Under the pieces are notes generated by a model, which did no database searches, was not told the origin of the DNA, and was given only the letters and a program-made list of their open reading frames with translations. A DNA stretch of 64,000 bases from Patellaria atrata CBS 101060. Taxonomy: Eukaryota > Ascomycota > Dothideomycetes > Patellariales > Patellariaceae. The stretch is taken from positions 1,091,550-1,155,549 of the forward strand of contig MU006094.1 of NCBI GenBank assembly GCA_010093705.1, in the 5' to 3' direction. Positions 3,092 to 60,089 of the stretch are shown here, piece by piece. Within the stretch, counting starts at the first letter, position 1. Every line of letters starts with the position of its first letter. Position numbers and translations under genes: made by a program.

Positions 3092-6000
3092 ATGCTAAAA
3101 AGGATGAGTGCTCCTGCATTTTATAGCCCTGAAGGCCCTTTATGGAGTCGTATCCAAATGTTGCTCAAGTCGTCGCACCGCACACCCGGTATCACTTTAC
3201 AGAAACTGGATTTGGCATGTAGCACACCGTTCTGGCATTATTCCTGGCAGTGGCACTACCCATTTCACCACAGCAGCCTCGTCCAACAATATCCTAGAAT
3301 GATAAACGATCATGATCTACAGCGTCTAGGGCTTCTTTGGAGAGAACGATGTCGCCTTACCCCAGTATAACTCTGCTAGAGCAAGCTACAGTATTGCTTA
3401 AGGGATCCTCGTTAACATGGCGGCAGACTCAATAGAACGGGGATTCCTTTACTCCACCAACGAGATGGCTGCGAATCACGCCTTTTTTGACGAATACAGC
3501 ACGCGATACGGGAAGTCGCTCGAGGTCCACCAACCGCTAGGACCGAAGTCCAGCGACCAGCTCGGTAACATGCATAAGGCCGTCTCTATTAAAGACGCCT
3601 GACAGAATGTCGTTTGCTCACTAACGAACTATTGAAACTACTGGTCCTAGTCTCCGAGAGCATTTGTTTAAACGTTGACCCATATGGAGATCTCCTCCTA
3701 GCGAATCCTCTATAAAAGTTAAGACGCATAGGAGGAAAGCGAAGCGAGGAGACCTGCAGGCACAAATAGCATCGGACGTCGGGAAATGGTCGTTAACTCA
3801 CTATCGGAGCTCAGATTACTGTATTGACAAGGCGTCAAAGGGGTGGTGTTTTCTTGCATTTTCAATTGGCAACGAAGGCCGTCAGTGACGGTCAGTGAAG
3901 GGGAAACATATAGCGGAAAGCGGCGATAAAATCAAATCCGGTTAGAGGTTCCTATTTCAGTGCTGACTTTTCAAGATAGTATCCAATGAATGATGTGTTA
4001 TTTTTCTTGGAGTTCCCTTGGTGTTTGTTTGATTGTTTTCCCCAGGCAAGTGGTGCCCCGGAGTGCATCCCATGTTCGGCTTGTCCCGCGAATGCATTGC
4101 TCCAGGTTTCCCACTACCTGTCCACCTACTGCCCACCTCCCAGTTCTTCCACCGTCCACCGCTGAGACCGCTCCCCACGCCAATTCGGATTCTCTGACCG
4201 CATCTGCCGGAGGACTGTATGAATCCCGAACGAAAGACGCTGTCCTCTTACTTTCCTCCAGTTTTGAATCATGACATGTTGCAGCAGGTTGTCGAGGAAC
4301 AAACGTTGCACCGTAGCGATGTCCCGTCTTTTGCGGCTTCGCCAAACCTGCTGAGCGACTAGTAAAACTGTGCATCTGCAAGGCACTTACGCCAGCAATG
4401 CGGTGGTTATGCGCCGGGCAATTGAGGCCAGCAACAGGGCACGAGGGATATGACGGGACTTGAGGAAGATCTTGAACCAGAATTGAGGTAAAGTTCTGTT
4501 CATCTTATCCTTCGCGAAGACGGCTAGAACTATATCAACGTGGCCCAACTACGATATACGCAAGAAAGTTTTCGTTGTGGCTTGTGAGCACCCGAGACAT
4601 CTAGCAAAACCATGGACATCAAAGCAAACCCTATCATCGTACCCCGGGATAGATATTCGCAGAGTCAGAACTTCCTACGGAAAATGATTTTTTGCTTCGC
4701 TTGCCGTCTTGCATCACACCGCGGCTTGTCAAAGGGTGTTCCTGGGTGTTGCATTGTGTTACTAAAATAGGACTGGAATAGGTACGGTAGTAGCGATAGT
4801 GCATGGAATATATTGCAGACCACCAATTACGATACGAACTCTGTGGCAACTGCATTACATGTTAAAAGAAAACATCTCTGCCGAATGTGGAGGAACCCGT
4901 TATGGACGACGTCGAATATCGTATTTCAATCACAGGACTGGATCATTGCTCCTGCCTCCCTTCCCTTCCAGATGCAATTACACGACGGGTCATGGATCCT
5001 CTCAATATGGCCACGCATAGGAAACAAAGAATCAACCGCACGGGTGATCTACCCGATGCCGCATTTCTTCGATCTGTATCTACTTTTTACAGTACAGTAC
5101 AGCTATCGGTTGGGCACTCAGGCGTGTCAGGATGGCAACAAGCATCGAGCAACATAATAGCCCAAAGCTGTCTCTTACAAGTTACAACGGACAAAACGCT
5201 CGTCCCTCGAACAACGACCGCAAAAAGCTTGGGTTATCCCGTGACCCAAAAACAACACGGAAATAAGGTGACCAGTAGCATATCGATATTGTTTCCTATT
5301 GTAGGTATTCTGTTCTCCTATTTCCGCCAAAGATTTCTTGGAAGCAATGCATTATACATGCAGATCCGAATTTTCGTCTCCTGGAGGATTCTGATCCAAT
5401 ATTCATGCCCTCATTATTCAGAATTGAGAACCGCAGCTTGTGTTACCAATGTACGATATCGGCTCGTTGATTTCCGATTTTATGCCGTCATTTTAGTAGG
5501 GAACTTGATAGAGAATAGGCAATTAATAGAACTACAGTATTGACTTTCGTAGTTTGAATTATTAGAACACTAAGCATTGAGCAATCACCATCCAATGTCT
5601 CCCCCATAGTCTCGCTGCTCTGTCTCGTGTTGTTGACTTCTGTTCAGGAACTTCGGGAGCAGTTCGCGACGCCGAGTCAGTGATTCCGTCTCAAGAAGCG
5701 ATAGAAACTCCACACTTCCATACCTGCGGCTCCAACCACGACATACCTAACCAGCCACCGTCAGCAACTTCGCATCATCGTACTGCGCAATAATAGCCAC
5801 AGTGAGCGAGTCGTCGTCCCGAAGACGATTCTCTAGATCTACCATACGCAATCCTTTCGCCTACAAGGCGCGCCAGCGGAGAGACCTCAAGCAAGATTTG
5901 TATGAAAACCGCCAATTCATGACCTCTTACGTCCATCAGTTGACTTGACGGGCTGGGAAGATCCCTCAAAGTAGTATTCTCTGAGTTGGACGCCTGACTG

Positions 6001-31838: not shown

Positions 31839-31863
31839 GGGGGTGCAGGAATTCGTTGCGCAC
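31839..31863 (+). repeat. Left terminal inverted repeat of the first transposon
   Basis: Twenty-five bases identical to the reverse complement of 33233-33257. Confidence 0.92.
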
Positions 31864-31924
31864 GGATCTCAACACCAAAACACACCTTCAATTCCTGGTA
31901 AACAATCAACTTCAAACAGCCAAA

Positions 31925-33183
31925 ATGGCACCACCACATACACCTACCAAGCTAAAAAAGGTAGTACGCGATACGCCGCGTCGCATACGTTTCTTTGATA
32001 CCTATGATGCCCATAAGAACGAGCTATCATTGCGTAAAATCTGTCGAAAACGTGGTGTTCGCCTACCAGAATCAACAGCGCGTTTCTGGCTCAAACAACG
32101 TGAGCAACAAGGCTCGCAAGCACTGCGTAGAACACGGAGCCAGAGTTCAAAACTGGGCCGTCCAAATACGTACGATTAGAACGAGCTGAAGCCTTTATTC
32201 AATCCTTCATATCCTCTACATGACGCGTCCTATAATGCTGTTGTGTGCGAAGCACACCTAGGAATCAAACTACGTACGTTGAAGGGCAATACGAAGCGTT
32301 ATTTTGGTGGCCAACGCTATAAGAAACGGCGTACCAAAACCATTTCTAAACGGAACCGCGATAAGCGTGTTTTGTACGGCCAAACACACCAAAATAAGAC
32401 AATTACTGGCCTTTGGCAGTACGTCTACTTCACTGATGAAGCACATTTCAAATCCAAAGACCTAGGGAATAAGAGGGAGTATGAATTCAGCATTCCAGGC
32501 CACACACCTGTTGGTTTAGAGCATACCGACGAAAACACGCTTAATGTTACGCTGCATGTGGCCGCGGGAATCACGTACAACCATAGAGGTGTTATTACAT
32601 TCTACAACGATCCAAAGAGCCCAGAAATCAATCAAAAGGTTGTTCCAAGGCCCCCTAAGCGTACCAAGTATGATAACGATCAAACATATAATAAACGGCT
32701 TGCTGATTGGCACGCGGAACACACACATCCAATAGATCCTCAAGCAGATATTCCACCTAAGGGGAACGCAATGACGCAGCGATTTTATGCCAAAGAGGTC
32801 CTACCATTGCATCTTGAATATCTGCGTTGGCTTGAGGCCAAATACCAGCGTAAATTCTACTTCCAAGAAGATAACGATCCCTCGCATGGTACTAGGTCAA
32901 CAAACAACGCGTGCTATAAGGCAAAACTAGCTTCAGGTGTCCAATTGCTGGATCATCCTGCGCAATCACCTTATTTAAATCCTATAGAGGGTATTTGGAA
33001 TATAATAAAACAGCGATTGCGTGGTAGTAAGTAGAAAACAGTAGATGAATTCAAGCAAGCAATTCTGGCAGAATGGCGTAAAGTAACAATTACACAATTC
33101 GCCACCACATCAGGGAGATGCCTAGGCGCTGTAAGGATGTAATAGATGCAAACGGGGATCGAATCAAGTCAGAATTGTGGTAA
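31925..33183 (+). pseudogene. Broken Tc1/mariner-type transposase
   Basis: Reading from the ATG at 31925, the N-terminus (MAPPHTPTKLKKVVRDTPRR) leads to a helix-turn-helix-like part (LSLRKICRKRGVRLPESTAR), then the DDE domain: FTDEAHF with the first Asp, FQEDNDPSHG with the second, and PYLNPIEGIWNIIKQRL with the Glu, about 38 residues after the second Asp. The C-terminus RRCKDVIDANGDRIKSELW before TAA at 33181 is typical of the family. Two in-frame TAG stops (32177-32179 and 33032-33034) and one frame change near 33100 break it. Both TAGs could come from CAG or TGG by C-to-T change in a CpA context, the direction expected of repeat-induced point mutation. This copy cannot make an intact transposase, but its inverted repeats could still be recognised by one made elsewhere. 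Confidence 0.88.
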
Positions 33184-33232
33184 TAAACGTGTTTTTGGTG
33201 ATATTTGATTGTGTTGAATTTTGACGTTGAGC

Positions 33233-33257
33233 GTGCGCAACGAATTCCTGCACCCCC
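33233..33257 (-). repeat. Right terminal inverted repeat of the first transposon
   Basis: Twenty-five bases, the exact reverse complement of 31839-31863. Confidence 0.92.
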
Positions 33258-33603
33258 GTAAGATGATCTAGCGGCTTAGTCATACTGTACTTTAGTAGAA
33301 CAGCATATGCTGTCTGAACACTTTCTTTTCTTAAGTTTAAGCTTCATGTACATGTAGCAATATACCTTTCAGCTTCCATCTGAGGTTGTGCCTTGACAGT
33401 AATGATCGGTGATGTTAGTAATATGCACTACGACGGATATAAGATGAAAAGGAGGATATACTGGCCATAAGGTATCCAGAGTTCTTTTGGATACCTACGT
33501 AAGTGATACCGTGCTGTTTAAATTATAGATACTGTTGTAGCACTTTGATAGAGTCTGTCATGACCATATTGTTGACATCGTCCGTAGGGTACTGTGACTT
33601 TCG
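33258..33603. other. Spacer between the two transposons
   Basis: AT-rich host-like DNA of about 345 bases with no gene or repeat that I can see. Confidence 0.35.
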
Positions 33604-33658
33604 ATGTTTCTTGATGTAGCTTTACAACTAGATTACTGTTGAAGCTGAATATTATATC
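33604..33658 (+). repeat. Left terminal inverted repeat of the two-gene transposon
   Basis: Fifty-five bases matching the reverse complement of 36301-36355 at about 51 positions. Three of the four differences are transitions. Confidence 0.88.
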
Positions 33659-33719
33659 TTTTTGAAGCCCTGAATAAACGTTATCTCGTGTACCATTCAG
33701 ATTCTCTGTTATTATAGAA

Positions 33720-34904
33720 ATGACCCCTCGCTCATCGACTAGAGTATCAAAACAGAGCGCTCGCGCTATTGAAGCTGAAGTGTCTTCGTCATTAACGAGA
33801 AAGCGTGCTACGTCAGGCTCAAATAGTACTTCAAATGCGCCTACAAAGAAGAATAAGAAGTCAGCCTCTAAAGGGTCCAAAAAGGAAAGCTTAAAAGCGT
33901 CAAAAAATACTGAAAATCCGGAGGCTACCAACCAGGCCGCTGCCGAGGCGTTGCTCGACTTTCCTACCCAGCAATCTGTCGTAGAGGAAGACCAACTCTC
34001 ATTCTCAAGTGGACGAGATGAAGTTGATGATGATGCTGTACTTTTGACTCAACAGTCTGAGTCTCAGCCTAAGCCTGAGCCTGAGCCCCAGCAGCAATCT
34101 GGCCGTAGTAAAACACCGCGGAAGTCAGCGACTCAGCAACAGTTAGCTAGCACCGCAGAGAAGCTGGCTGCCGAAGAGGAAGCTGGCAAATTTGTTCAAG
34201 TTATAACGGACCGCTGAATTTGCGAAAACTCCCATTGCAAGAATAAAGGCCATGTCTGTTGGCAAAATAAGCGATCTATAACTGCTGCTGACATTGTCGT
34301 CAACCACTATCCGTGTAGTGCAGAGATACTAAGGCGCTGGAATAGTGAGATAAAGAAGGGTTTTGCATCAGTCGAGGTGCCGTCGCAGAAAATCATAGTT
34401 CAGATGGTTACTTGGAAAGAAGCCCTTGGTCGGAAACGTCAACAAACTGAGGCTTCAGCAACGCCTACAGTAGCTTCCCAGGCGTCTGTTGATTCGGGGG
34501 CTTCTAGTCAGATCAAACAGGTGTTGTTAGTATCTCAAATCCGACGGATGGCACCACCTGAAGTACCACCTCCAGTACCTCTCTTCCCTCCCCAAAAGAC
34601 CCAATTGTCCCACGCCCCTCCTCCCAATTCGAGCCCTCTAAGTGCAGACACAGATCCAGTTGAGTTGCTCGCAGAGTTCTTTGAGTGTTTGAAGCTACAA
34701 CCTGGTTTTAATACACAGCAACAGGTGAATATATTAGAAGAGACGAAGGTTAAGATGGTGGAAGAGCAGTGGAGCTTAGATTCGTTAAAACCGAGGAAGC
34801 CAGATGAGGGAATCTCCCAAATAACTTGGGAGGAATATGGTTTCAAAATAGGGTTACTTGTGCGAATAAGAGCGAAGATATCTGACTTTAAGCGCTTAAG
34901 ATAA
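33720..34904 (+). pseudogene. Accessory ORF of the two-gene transposon, unknown family, one in-frame stop
   Basis: One frame runs from ATG at 33720 to 34904 (394 codons), interrupted only by a TGA at 34215-34217. The N-terminal 70 residues are basic and Ser-rich (MTPRSSTRVSKQSARAI, then KKNKKSASKGSKKESLKASK), suggesting a nuclear, nucleic-acid-binding protein. An acidic Gln/Pro-rich part follows. Just after the stop lies CENSHCKNKGHVCW, a C-x4-C-x5-H-x-C set that could bind zinc, then a segment with HYPCSAEILRRWNSEIKKG. The C-terminal 110 residues look folded and helical (ELLAEFFECLKLQPGF, EEQWSLDSLKP, ITWEEYGFKIGLLVRIRAKI). I recognise no family. Convergent placement with the transposase inside the same inverted repeats suggests a partner protein for transposition. 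The TGA could derive from CGA or TGG by a single transition. Confidence 0.72.
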
Positions 34905-35674
34905 TAGATAGATATTCTCTTTACTCTTCTACTTCATCTACAATATATCCATCCTTTCTAAAATGCTCTCGAGCGTGGTTATGGCTATCAACTTGCTCAA
35001 CTCCAAAGCGAAGAAACATCTCAAAGTCCGTGAATTCTCTTATTAGGCTACGATTCCCCCTAATCCAAGCCTTTAAGTCATGAAAAGTCGCCTCAATTGG
35101 GTTAAAATCTGGCGAATAAGGCGGTAGATACTCAATTAAAACACCATAACGGGCGCAAAGCTCTCGTAGTGCTGCGGATCGGTGGATAGAGACGTTATCG
35201 AGTATCAAAATCGATCGTGGGCCTGGGTATGCTGAGCAAAATGGAAGCACTCCGTCAGCTACGAACTCGAGGAATAACTCGCTTGTAAAGCTACCTTGGA
35301 AGATCTTATACCCTAAATATCCGTTAGCTGTTAAAGCTGGTAAGATAGACATCTCTCCGATCGCTTAATAGGGCGAGTATTTTCGCATTCTACTCCGATA
35401 GGTGACCAGCCGTATTTTCTATCTCCAGTACGCTCATTAGCCGCTGACTCATCAAGAAACACCAACTGCTCAGTAGTCCAGGTATTCGATCTTCCAACCC
35501 AAGCTCTACGGAGTGGCTGACTTCTCTCGGAGGCTCGATTTCTTACTGCTTTTCGAGACTAACGAGCCCTCTGTAGCGCTCGATAGACACTAGATGTTGA
35601 GATAAACACGTCAAACTCGTCGAAAAGGAATACTTGCATCTCATCAAGGAACGCTGCAGGCTGATCATCTAGAT

Positions 35675-35964
35675 ACTCTTAAAGTCTCTACTAAACTCTT
35701 AAAGTCTCTACTAAACTCTTAAAGTCTCTACTAAACTCTTAAAGTCTCTACTAAACTCTTAAAGTCTCTNNNNNNNNNNNNNNNNNNNNNNNNNNNNNNN
35801 NNNNNNNNNNNNNNNNNNNNNNNNNNNNNNNNNNNNNNNNNNNNNNNNNNNNNNNNNNNNNNNNNNNNNTAAAGTCTCTACTAAACTCTTAAAGTCTCTA
35901 CTAAACTCTTAAAGTCTCTACTAAACTCTTAAAGTCTCTACTAAACTCTTAAAGTCTCTACTAA
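35675..35964. repeat. 20-bp minisatellite with internal assembly gap
   Basis: Perfect tandem copies of the unit ACTCTTAAAGTCTCTACTAA, about 4.75 on each side of the gap. The copies are identical to each other, so the expansion is recent or kept uniform. The sequence just outside shows it grew from a single copy already present in the transposase gene. Confidence 0.95.
35770..35869. other. Assembly gap (100 N)
   Basis: Exactly 100 undetermined bases inside the minisatellite. The round number suggests a placeholder, so the array could be longer or shorter than drawn. Confidence 0.98.
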
Positions 35965-36300
35965 TAAGTCGACTGTAGGGAACAAGATCTGAGTCTACGT
36001 ACTCGCTCTTGATGCTCTGTAAGGGACCTTGGACGGCCATTTTTCACAGATGCCGGAGCATACGGCGCTCCAAAAATATCAAAATTTAACTTCAATTTGT
36101 AGATAGTCGTTTTGGATATATTGAGCGCTAGAGCAATAGCCGGAACGGGCTGGTTGTCATCAAATCGCGCCCTGATACGCTGAATTACGCTCTCCGGAAG
36201 CCTCCGACCCATCTTTACTGCGACCGAAGCATCAACAACAACCAGCTATAAGTTAAAAAAGAGAACAACACCATAGAAAGCTGGGCTAGGCAGTCAAAGC

Positions 36301-36355
36301 GATATAATATTCAAGTTTAACAGTAATCTGGTTGTAAAGCCACATCAAGAAACAT
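36301..36355 (-). repeat. Right terminal inverted repeat of the two-gene transposon
   Basis: Fifty-five bases, the near-perfect reverse complement of 33604-33658. Confidence 0.88.
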
Positions 36356-37461
36356 AAAAATGCGATGATTCTGGCGGGGGTGTTGTGTGCGATGATGTGG
36401 TGTAGCCAAGAGTTCACGATGTTTCGAAAGTCACAGTATCATCAGCCTCTGGCTTTTTCAAGATTGTATTCAACAAACTCTGTTCCAGTCTTCATATCCT
36501 TCGGCAACTTCGTTGTTCTTCGTGATTTCGATCAAACGCAATTGGAGCTACCTTTGACCTAAGCATATCGCTCACCTTTGCTGTCTTTGCCGTTGGTATT
36601 CTTCGTTCTTCGTGCTATTTCCTCAATATTTACTGACGGGGATTCAAACTGGATATGTAGAAGATGGTAAGGTTACGATCTCTTTGTACGTTTCCATCTC
36701 TCCACAGCAGAGTCTGGGACGCCTTTAGATTTAGGCGTACGGAGCCAAAAATTTTATAGTCGGCGGAGTTGGAGCAGGTTCGAAGAGAGCGCAACCTGCA
36801 AAACAAATAAAAGGACATAATATCTTGTAAATATTCACGATGACCTCCCTGAAAATTAGAGAAACTGGAAGAGTTGACGGTTGGTGTGAGTATGAACTTG
36901 TTCTACTAGTTCTAACATTATTTGCATCTCAGCATGTTCGAACCTATCTCATTCAACATGATATCCCTCTTTATAGAAGAGGGATTCCGCTTGTGAGTTT
37001 GTGGAGAATTTGAAAAGGGTTTTCCAGGTGTGAGGGTGTTCCATGATGCTTTTATTGCAGGCGCTTAGTTTATCACTCACTAGTTCCTTCGGGTGCGGTT
37101 CCGAAACGTTTGAACTGAATGCGAGCTAAATTCTTCAGGTGGCTGAAGCCAGAGTCTGGGGATCGGAACGCACCCTCAAGCTGAGTCTTTTCCCAACTGA
37201 AAAAGACGTAACCAAGAAGACTCTAGAGGATGGGTTTTGAAGGCGCCTGACGCGAAGAATCGGACTTTTTGAGCGCAATACAGTATTCTCTCCAATTTCT
37301 GGTCCGGGGAAGAGATGTGATAAGTAATTGTTCCTTCGCATAACGGAGTCACATTTTCTTAGCCTACCAGAACGAGATTGTATTAGCGTGATATTTTCCC
37401 AACGCCCTTGAACTTCGCCCCCAAAGATCCGGGGTGCTAAAGTTGGAGGCTTGAAGGTAAA
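36356..37461. other. Gene-free stretch right of the transposons
   Basis: AT-rich. Short open frames such as 36365-36562 on the + strand and 37135-37341 on the minus strand have no domain-like pattern. Nothing else is seen. Confidence 0.35.
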
Positions 37462-58632: not shown

Positions 58633-60089
58633 GTTGAATGATACCGCAAGCTCGATTGACGGAAGTTTTTGTTTCCTCTAGCGGAATATTGTGATCAGCA
58701 ATTGACGTGAATGAGCCTTCGTTTTGTTAAGTGTTACGATATCCAATATCAGAAGGGTGAGTCGTCGATGGTTGCCGTATTGGGCATCAAGCATAAAGAA
58801 AGGCCCAACGGAGTCGGTAGGGAAATATTGACTTACAGGATATTGTCTTTGACCGAAGAAGGAGATTGGAAGACTAGATTGATATGTTTCAAGAAAGACT
58901 CCGAGACTTATTAGAACGTTGAATGTTGATGTACAAAGAAAAGTTGATAAAGTAGTGTGTGAGTCTCGGGGTTGTAAGGAATGTCTACTCCGAAAACGGC
59001 CGGTTCCTATTAGATAAGAGCTAAGTGGGTTTCGAGAAGCCGGCAGCCAACCAATTCAGTTATAAGTCATAAGAATTCGAGATTAAGGTCATGTATGATG
59101 AATCAGCCAGTTCTAGATGATGTTTTGACATTGTGACTCCTGTTGACTGGGTAATACTTTGCATCTTGTGATGTTGCCACTCTGTTCAAAGGATGCGCAT
59201 GCATTCACCGGCGGCTAAGGTAGAACTACGAGTAGACGGACGGAACAGATCATCTTCCGTAGAACTACGCTAAGCCTAACCGCCTATTGTCGGGATTTGT
59301 TACGGAATACGGTTTGAGTGGAGTCTGAGAGATGGATAGAGAGCGGAAAGATTGTCTTTGTCGGAAAGCCTTCCACCAGACTCCGTAGTTCTACCTATGT
59401 ACCGTGCCGTACCGTACAAGTAGTTAGGTTATGATTAACCATGTCGATGAGAAAAGGACATGCGTCCCATAAGCCTACCTTAGGGAATGCAAAAAGAGGT
59501 ACAGAACAGTCCTGTACAGTCCTGTACAGTCCTGTAAGATTGGCTCAGGGGGATAAGAAGAGTTAAGAGATGGAATGGGTTCGTTCGAAGAAGACGATAA
59601 GTAACAATAATAGGAGAAATAAGGTAAGGAAAGGTAAGGAAAGGTAAGGAAAGGTAAGGTAAGGTAAGGTAAGGTAAGGTAAGGTAAGGTAAGGTAAGGT
59701 AGGCGAAGATTAAAGCATGCGAAAGGACGGAGTAAGGTAAGGTTATACTTGTATGAAGCTCTAAAGGTATGAACGCCGAGTGATCCGCGATAGGTTAGTG
59801 GGGTATAAGCTTCCCCCAGCAAGCACCAGCCACAGCATCATCCCGTAGCCCTGGGTCATACCTTCCTTATCTCATCTCTGTACCTACCTCCCGTACTATT
59901 GTACCTACCGAATCTCCCACCTCAACAGTATCCAAGACAACTTAGAACTCGTTATTTGTATAGTACTCATAATAGTTCCAGATACCTAGAACCCCAAAAC
60001 ACTCCACCTCCAGATATCTTAAACCGTCCCCAGTCCATTACCCCTACACTCCGTACAGACTCCCCTTCTCTCTCATCCCCGCTCCAGCT
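58633..60089. other. Intergenic stretch between the SDR and glutamine synthetase-like genes
   Basis: A 10-base unit AGTCCTGTAC occurs three times in a row at about 59508-59537, followed by an AAGGT pentamer array (59625-59702). The part nearest 60090 is C-rich and is the presumed leader of the next gene. Confidence 0.45.
59625..59702. repeat. AAGGT pentanucleotide microsatellite
   Basis: About ten uniform AAGGT units preceded by three ten-base AAGGAAAGGT variants, on the + strand. Confidence 0.92.

Follow-up and report, generated by a model that had tools for sequence, protein, structure and literature searches.

A decayed IS630-Tc1-mariner transposon of Patellaria atrata with a second, convergent reading frame inside its terminal inverted repeats

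We analyzed a stretch of 64,000 nucleotides of the fungus Patellaria atrata CBS 101060 (assembly GCA_010093705.1, contig MU006094.1, positions 1,091,550 to 1,155,549), referred to below as the window, in which an earlier note had placed a DNA transposon bounded by 55-bp inverted repeats. Alignment with blastn paired positions 33604–33665 with 36355–36294 in inverted orientation over 62 bp, at 88.7% identity and 76.8 bits, compared with a best inverted match of 39.9 bits in 200 single-base shuffles of 33000–37000 from which N had been removed. Taking 33605 and 36354 as the best ends of the element gives a left terminal inverted repeat at 33605–33665 (plus strand) and a right one at 36294–36354 (minus strand), each of 61 bp with 54/61 bases matching the other arm; the repeat pair itself is real, and only its length needed a slight upward revision. 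As assembled, gap included, the element measures 2,750 bases. Inside this one pair of repeats lie an accessory frame, ORF1, at 33720–34904 on the plus strand and a transposase pseudogene running from 36212 to 34921 on the minus strand, tail to tail as the earlier note had described them, with their stop codons 16 bases apart where it had given about 17. The ATG of ORF1 lies 54 bp from the left arm and that of the transposase 81 bp from the right arm. Counting a tandem array and its gap of 100 N with the transposase, about 90% of the 2,750 bases falls inside the gene spans. Single-gene content is typical of IS630-Tc1-mariner elements, although not defining for them, and here the ends enclose a second, convergent frame. 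No second copy of the element was found within the 64-kb window, where a lone 22-bp match was at chance level (E 0.39), and the end sequence had no exact match in viral contigs.

The transposase (34921–36212, minus strand) combines a helix-turn-helix N-terminus with a DDE_3 catalytic part, recognized across three pieces of broken frame. In Pfam, the N-terminal piece contains a helix-turn-helix recognized by HTH_7 (E 1.1e-8, with 35.5 bits against a cut-off of 23.8); the C-terminal piece matches DDE_3 positions 39–139 (E 4e-21), and the middle piece covers DDE_3 positions 1–38 (E 5e-5) with 23.6 bits, under the curated cut-off of 28.6. The NCBIfam IS630 model was matched at 8.2e-21 with 74.7 bits, a score under the whole-protein cut-off of 100 for a query that is a piece only. 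The second D and the E are separated by 34 residues (DD34E), the first D being placed by its position in the middle piece, without alignment. By sequence homology, we assign the transposase to the IS630-Tc1-mariner group and not to pogo/Fot1, and the IS630/Tc1 type proposed in the earlier note is borne out. Transposons of the pogo/Fot1 kind carry a DDE_1-type domain and a CENP-B-type DNA-binding part; here, Pfam returned DDE_1 only at E 0.31 and no CENP-B row. The PIF/Harbinger elements pair a Harbinger-type transposase with a Myb-like helper, and neither a Harbinger transposase nor a Myb row occurred among Pfam matches up to E 1. An NCBIfam match of the N-terminal piece to the IS66 accessory protein TnpA was weak (0.0011; 18.6 bits against a cut-off of 150), and we took it to reflect a helix-turn-helix in common.

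Relatives of the C-terminal piece were abundant in the plasmid collection, where 1,251 records matched at E 1e-3 or better; the best 20 of these were 30.9–34.3% identical, seven of the 20 bearing an IS630 label and 13 no label. In prokaryote genomes, 108 candidate stretches yielded six bacterial loci, whereas in viral contigs nine stretches fit the pattern and none was confirmed, and in the PDB no solved structure was found by sequence (best E 0.99). Two of the six bacterial loci, L001 and L002, were checked for inverted repeats, with at most six pairs taken for each. L002 contains overlapping transposase frames at 4445–4816 and 4746–5399, and no separate partner was seen beside them. These frames are bracketed by a 30-bp pair of 80% identity, at about 4391–4420 and 5388–5416, which belongs to the non-significant pairs (E 1.8 and 3.1) and would be consistent with an element of about 1 kb that carries the transposase alone.

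The intact gene pair that the earlier note implied is contradicted by the sequence, as the copy is degenerate: the transposase is split by the tandem array and further broken by a stop and a frame change, and ORF1 contains an in-frame TGA. The array, at 35675–35964 inside the transposase, consists of 4.8 copies of a 20-bp unit, an assembly gap of 100 N (35770–35869) and another 4.8 copies. The unit is not a multiple of three, the sequenced units are 100% alike, and the array centre is the only N run of the window; the array can be read either as a recent expansion or as an assembly problem. The 20-bp repeat had no exact match in viral contigs. The transposase stop lies between the array and the catalytic part, and the frame changes near 35350. 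Apart from the array, point damage is light in both genes (a single stop for ORF1, a stop plus a frame change for the transposase), as if both had been intact until about the same time. Since neither protein could be made intact from an unspliced frame, movement of the copy, if it occurs at all, would depend on transposase supplied from another source. RIP indices gave mixed indications as to the cause of decay. Against the thresholds quoted in the available text of PMC4188875 (TpA/ApT above 0.89 and (CpA+TpG)/(ApC+GpT) below 1.03), the three array-free parts of the element gave 1.03, 0.98 and 0.93 for the first index and 1.18, 1.01 and 1.18 for the second, with 1.17 and 1.01 for the whole element including the array.

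We then consider ORF1, which comprises 394 codons when its internal TGA is counted. Its frame holds two stops including the terminal one, whereas across 500 single-base shuffles the best of three forward frames averaged 17.4 stops, with 8 as the lowest count; it is thus open far beyond chance. The first 165 residues contain 15.8% Ser, 11.5% Ala, 9.7% Lys, 9.7% Glu and 9.1% Gln. The second piece, 228 residues at 34218–34904, starts with a C-x4-C-x6-C stretch, and Ser and Pro make up 9.2% and 8.3% of it. Computed pI values of 8.83 and 9.1 indicate a mildly basic character for both pieces. Scored by the codon usage of the host, the first part of ORF1 is best in its own frame (0.24, the other five frames ranging from −0.06 to 0.054), whereas the second part scores 0.103 in its own frame and 0.138 in another, which makes a strong coding signal in that part somewhat less likely; the transposase pieces score low (0.003 and 0.044). 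A single-sequence structure model of the second piece reached a mean pLDDT of 42.2 and a pTM of 0.24, with low-confidence helices in the last third. At this mean pLDDT, the model is unusable as support for the helper role considered below, and it was kept out of fold searches.

The in-frame TGA, read from the sequence at 34215–34217 (plus strand), could also belong to an intron, in which case splicing would leave ORF1 intact and its protein could still be produced despite the loss of the transposase. Within limits of 40–150 nt, eight GT...AG stretches of 42–144 nt would remove the TGA in frame, two of them ending at 34325 with a branch-like CTGAC motif, among them a weak candidate of 126 nt at 34200–34325 (plus strand). 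In frame, the codon usage of this stretch is not coding-like (−0.079 per codon, against 0.24 before it and 0.103 after it); because the transposase pieces score about as low, this value does not separate a stop from an intron. Judged by the usual consensus, the 5′ sites (GTTATA or GTTCAA) seem weak, and the case is further weakened by the ease with which candidates arise, eight stretches passing the length and frame filter and two having the branch-like motif. Each of the eight intrudes on the cysteine-bearing stretch, which the two with CTGAC remove. The length of the candidate has some precedent in introns of 124–276 nt in Tc1-mariner families of Sclerotinia, as given in the accessible part of PMC4188875. 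On balance, we consider a spliced ORF1 distinctly unlikely; it would be compatible with the interpretation of the whole element that we favor.

Homology searches placed ORF1 in no described family. Neither of its pieces had a significant match in Pfam or NCBIfam, the best rows (PF00424, 0.021; PF09421, 0.032; TIGR02048, 0.16; NF004561, 0.61) falling far under their curated cut-offs and being attributed to chance. For the second piece, three stretches in viral contigs and 41 in prokaryote genomes fit the pattern and none was confirmed; the plasmid collection gave no match up to E 1, and the best PDB entry, 7pnt_U, was not significant at E 0.26. Because relatives are expected in fungi and the collections searched are non-fungal except by chance, these absences say little. 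A comparable C-x4-C-x6-C stretch may occur in hypothetical proteins of fungi, which we treat as a lead only.

We interpret the locus as one decayed copy of an IS630-Tc1-mariner cut-and-paste transposon whose intact form would have carried two convergent genes, one for a DD34E transposase and one for a second protein, and we give this interpretation a probability of roughly 0.55. In its favor, significant repeats enclose both frames, and ORF1 is open to an extent that shuffled sequence does not approach. On the other side stand the single copy seen, the lack of an ORF1 relative in the collections searched, a target duplication that is not intact, the better score of the second part of ORF1 in another frame, the low codon usage of the transposase pieces and the lack of a solved-structure match for the C-terminal piece of the transposase. 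In the intact element, the N-terminal helix-turn-helix of the transposase would bind the 61-bp ends, and the enzyme would cut and join them. The second protein, of roughly 390 residues, may have been a helper that bound DNA, the transposase or both, and the two genes would have moved together as one unit. Such a role, which would be comparable to that of the DNA-binding helper in PIF/Harbinger transposons with two genes, is inferred by analogy from the Ser-rich first part, the mildly basic character, the cysteine-bearing stretch, which could hold a metal, and the possibly helical tail; on this view, the second protein most likely helped to bind DNA or the transposase.

That ORF1 is a true resident of the element is suggested only by its compact fit (54 bp from the left arm, 81 bp between the transposase and the right arm, and 16 bp between the stops). 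The same frame might instead be a passenger, a gene or fragment taken up once by a one-gene IS630-type transposon, which would have no role in movement and would be absent from other copies. A captured gene is usually truncated or still accompanied by flanking host sequence, and this counts against a passenger here, as ORF1 fills the space from the left end to the transposase and about 10% of the element lies outside the gene spans. Base composition does not separate the two possibilities, since the third-position G+C of ORF1 (0.43–0.44) falls within the ranges of both 15 host frames (0.405–0.779) and the three transposase pieces (0.385–0.545). A passenger would agree with the absence of ORF1 relatives from Pfam and NCBIfam and with the usual form of a Tc1-mariner element, described in the available text of PMC4188875 as a single ORF in 1.3–2.4 kb, compared with 2,750 bases as assembled here. 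We regard a one-off capture as unlikely, and favor a real two-gene element over it because of the tight fit within one pair of ends and the light point damage, although one copy cannot prove the point.

The flanks of the element raise the further question of whether it is one unit at all. The right end is adjoined by TA (36355–36356), a possible target-site copy, whereas the left dinucleotide (33603–33604) is GA, so the TA duplication expected for the group is not intact in this single decayed copy. A perfect 15-bp outer inverted repeat, with its left arm at 33590–33604 (plus strand) and its right arm at 36424–36438 (minus strand), adjoins the element on the left and is separated from it by 69 bp on the right. 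Two insertions, or one insertion beside a resident gene, might have come to look like a single unit by chance, and the outer repeat and the unmatched left flank would then be traces of a more complex history; a different Tc1-like element 347 bp to the left indicates that the area collects insertions, which also counts for such nesting. Around both frames, however, the search returned a single pair of long repeats, and the outer repeat is most simply explained as part of a small target element: joined without the insert and the right TA, the flanks fold, in a prediction made without shuffle control, into a 97-nt hairpin with an outer stem of 17 pairs. This hairpin may be a small non-autonomous element into which the transposon landed. 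No second copy of it was found within the window, where the outer 15-mer with up to three mismatches had four matches against 1.87 expected; as 12 of 100 shuffles also reach four, only the two exact matches, at the flanks, carry weight. We hold nesting to be improbable and retain a single two-gene element as the preferred interpretation.

Compared with known systems, the element resembles the IS630-Tc1-mariner group in its DDE_3 catalytic part, DD34E spacing, N-terminal helix-turn-helix, terminal inverted repeats and the TA at its right flank, and differs in the second convergent gene within its ends and in the absence of the left TA from the present copy. Extra genes or domains have precedents within the group. 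The ciliate elements Tec and TBE, as presented in the available text of PMC7325037, combine a DD34E transposase of the same group with further ORFs, one of three lying in the complement; the extra gene named there for Tec is a site-specific recombinase, whereas ORF1 matches no such family. Among fungi, the accessible part of PMC9977792 describes Tc1-OP1 of yeast as a Tc1 element with an extra serine-rich domain whose role is undetermined, but that domain is fused to a DD40E transposase in one ORF, and here the second frame is separate and convergent. TremE and TremF of Paracoccidioides are Tc1/mariner-like elements with two ORFs between ends of 42–43 bp, and the second ORF of TremE is similar to a hypothetical protein; the text of PMC2836289, as far as available, gives the two ORFs without stating convergence. 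According to the same text, TremF has CENP-B and DDE parts in its two ORFs and is tied to pogo, unlike the present transposase with its DDE_1 match at only E 0.31. The pogo elements themselves have one or two ORFs according to the available text of PMC7386202.

Outside the group, two-gene PIF/Harbinger elements also pair a transposase with a separate DNA-binding protein (PMC3562529, available text), but their transposase belongs to a different family, and the comparison applies to the working principle only. Styx of Zymoseptoria, as described in the available text of PMC10853768, is a fungal DNA transposon with extra genes, two of them with putative DNA-binding motifs, and differs in a transposase tied to IS3EU, a length of 7,927 bp and four ORFs. 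The earlier note knew of no fungal Tc1/IS630 element with such an accessory protein. Within open-licence literature covered in partial text, a separate convergent gene was found in no fungal IS630/Tc1 element among the matches listed, which does not prove absence; as a wider claim of novelty the statement is qualified by the extra genes or domains of Tec/TBE, TremE and Tc1-OP1.

If the gene pair is conserved, the element is a variant of a known transposon group; otherwise, it is a decayed transposon of the ordinary kind that has captured a frame. A bolder proposal, which we find somewhat unlikely, is that of a fungal IS630-type lineage that depends on a DD34E transposase together with a dedicated convergent partner, the latter from an undescribed protein family, with the pair kept across species; given the closely abutting 3′ ends, transcription of one gene might also reduce expression of the other. 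Tc1/mariner is taken as the model of one-protein transposition, and an obligate second protein in a fungal branch, if true, would show the gain of a helper in the group and add a new protein family, whereas after a one-off capture the second gene would be ordinary.

The window reads as a gene-bearing eukaryotic region, with ordinary domains in seven of ten sampled open frames (C2H2 zinc finger, CREG, ferric reductase twice, BTB, protein kinase and glutamine synthetase) and none at E 0.001 in the other three. The neighboring Tc1-like element, at 31839–33257, has perfect 26-bp inverted repeats (31839–31864 and 33232–33257) and a DDE_3 transposase frame at 32243–33034 with 38 residues between the second D and the E; upstream of this frame, at about 32177, there is an in-frame stop. 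Farther along the window, the pentanucleotide TAAGG is repeated in 16.4 copies at 59620–59701.
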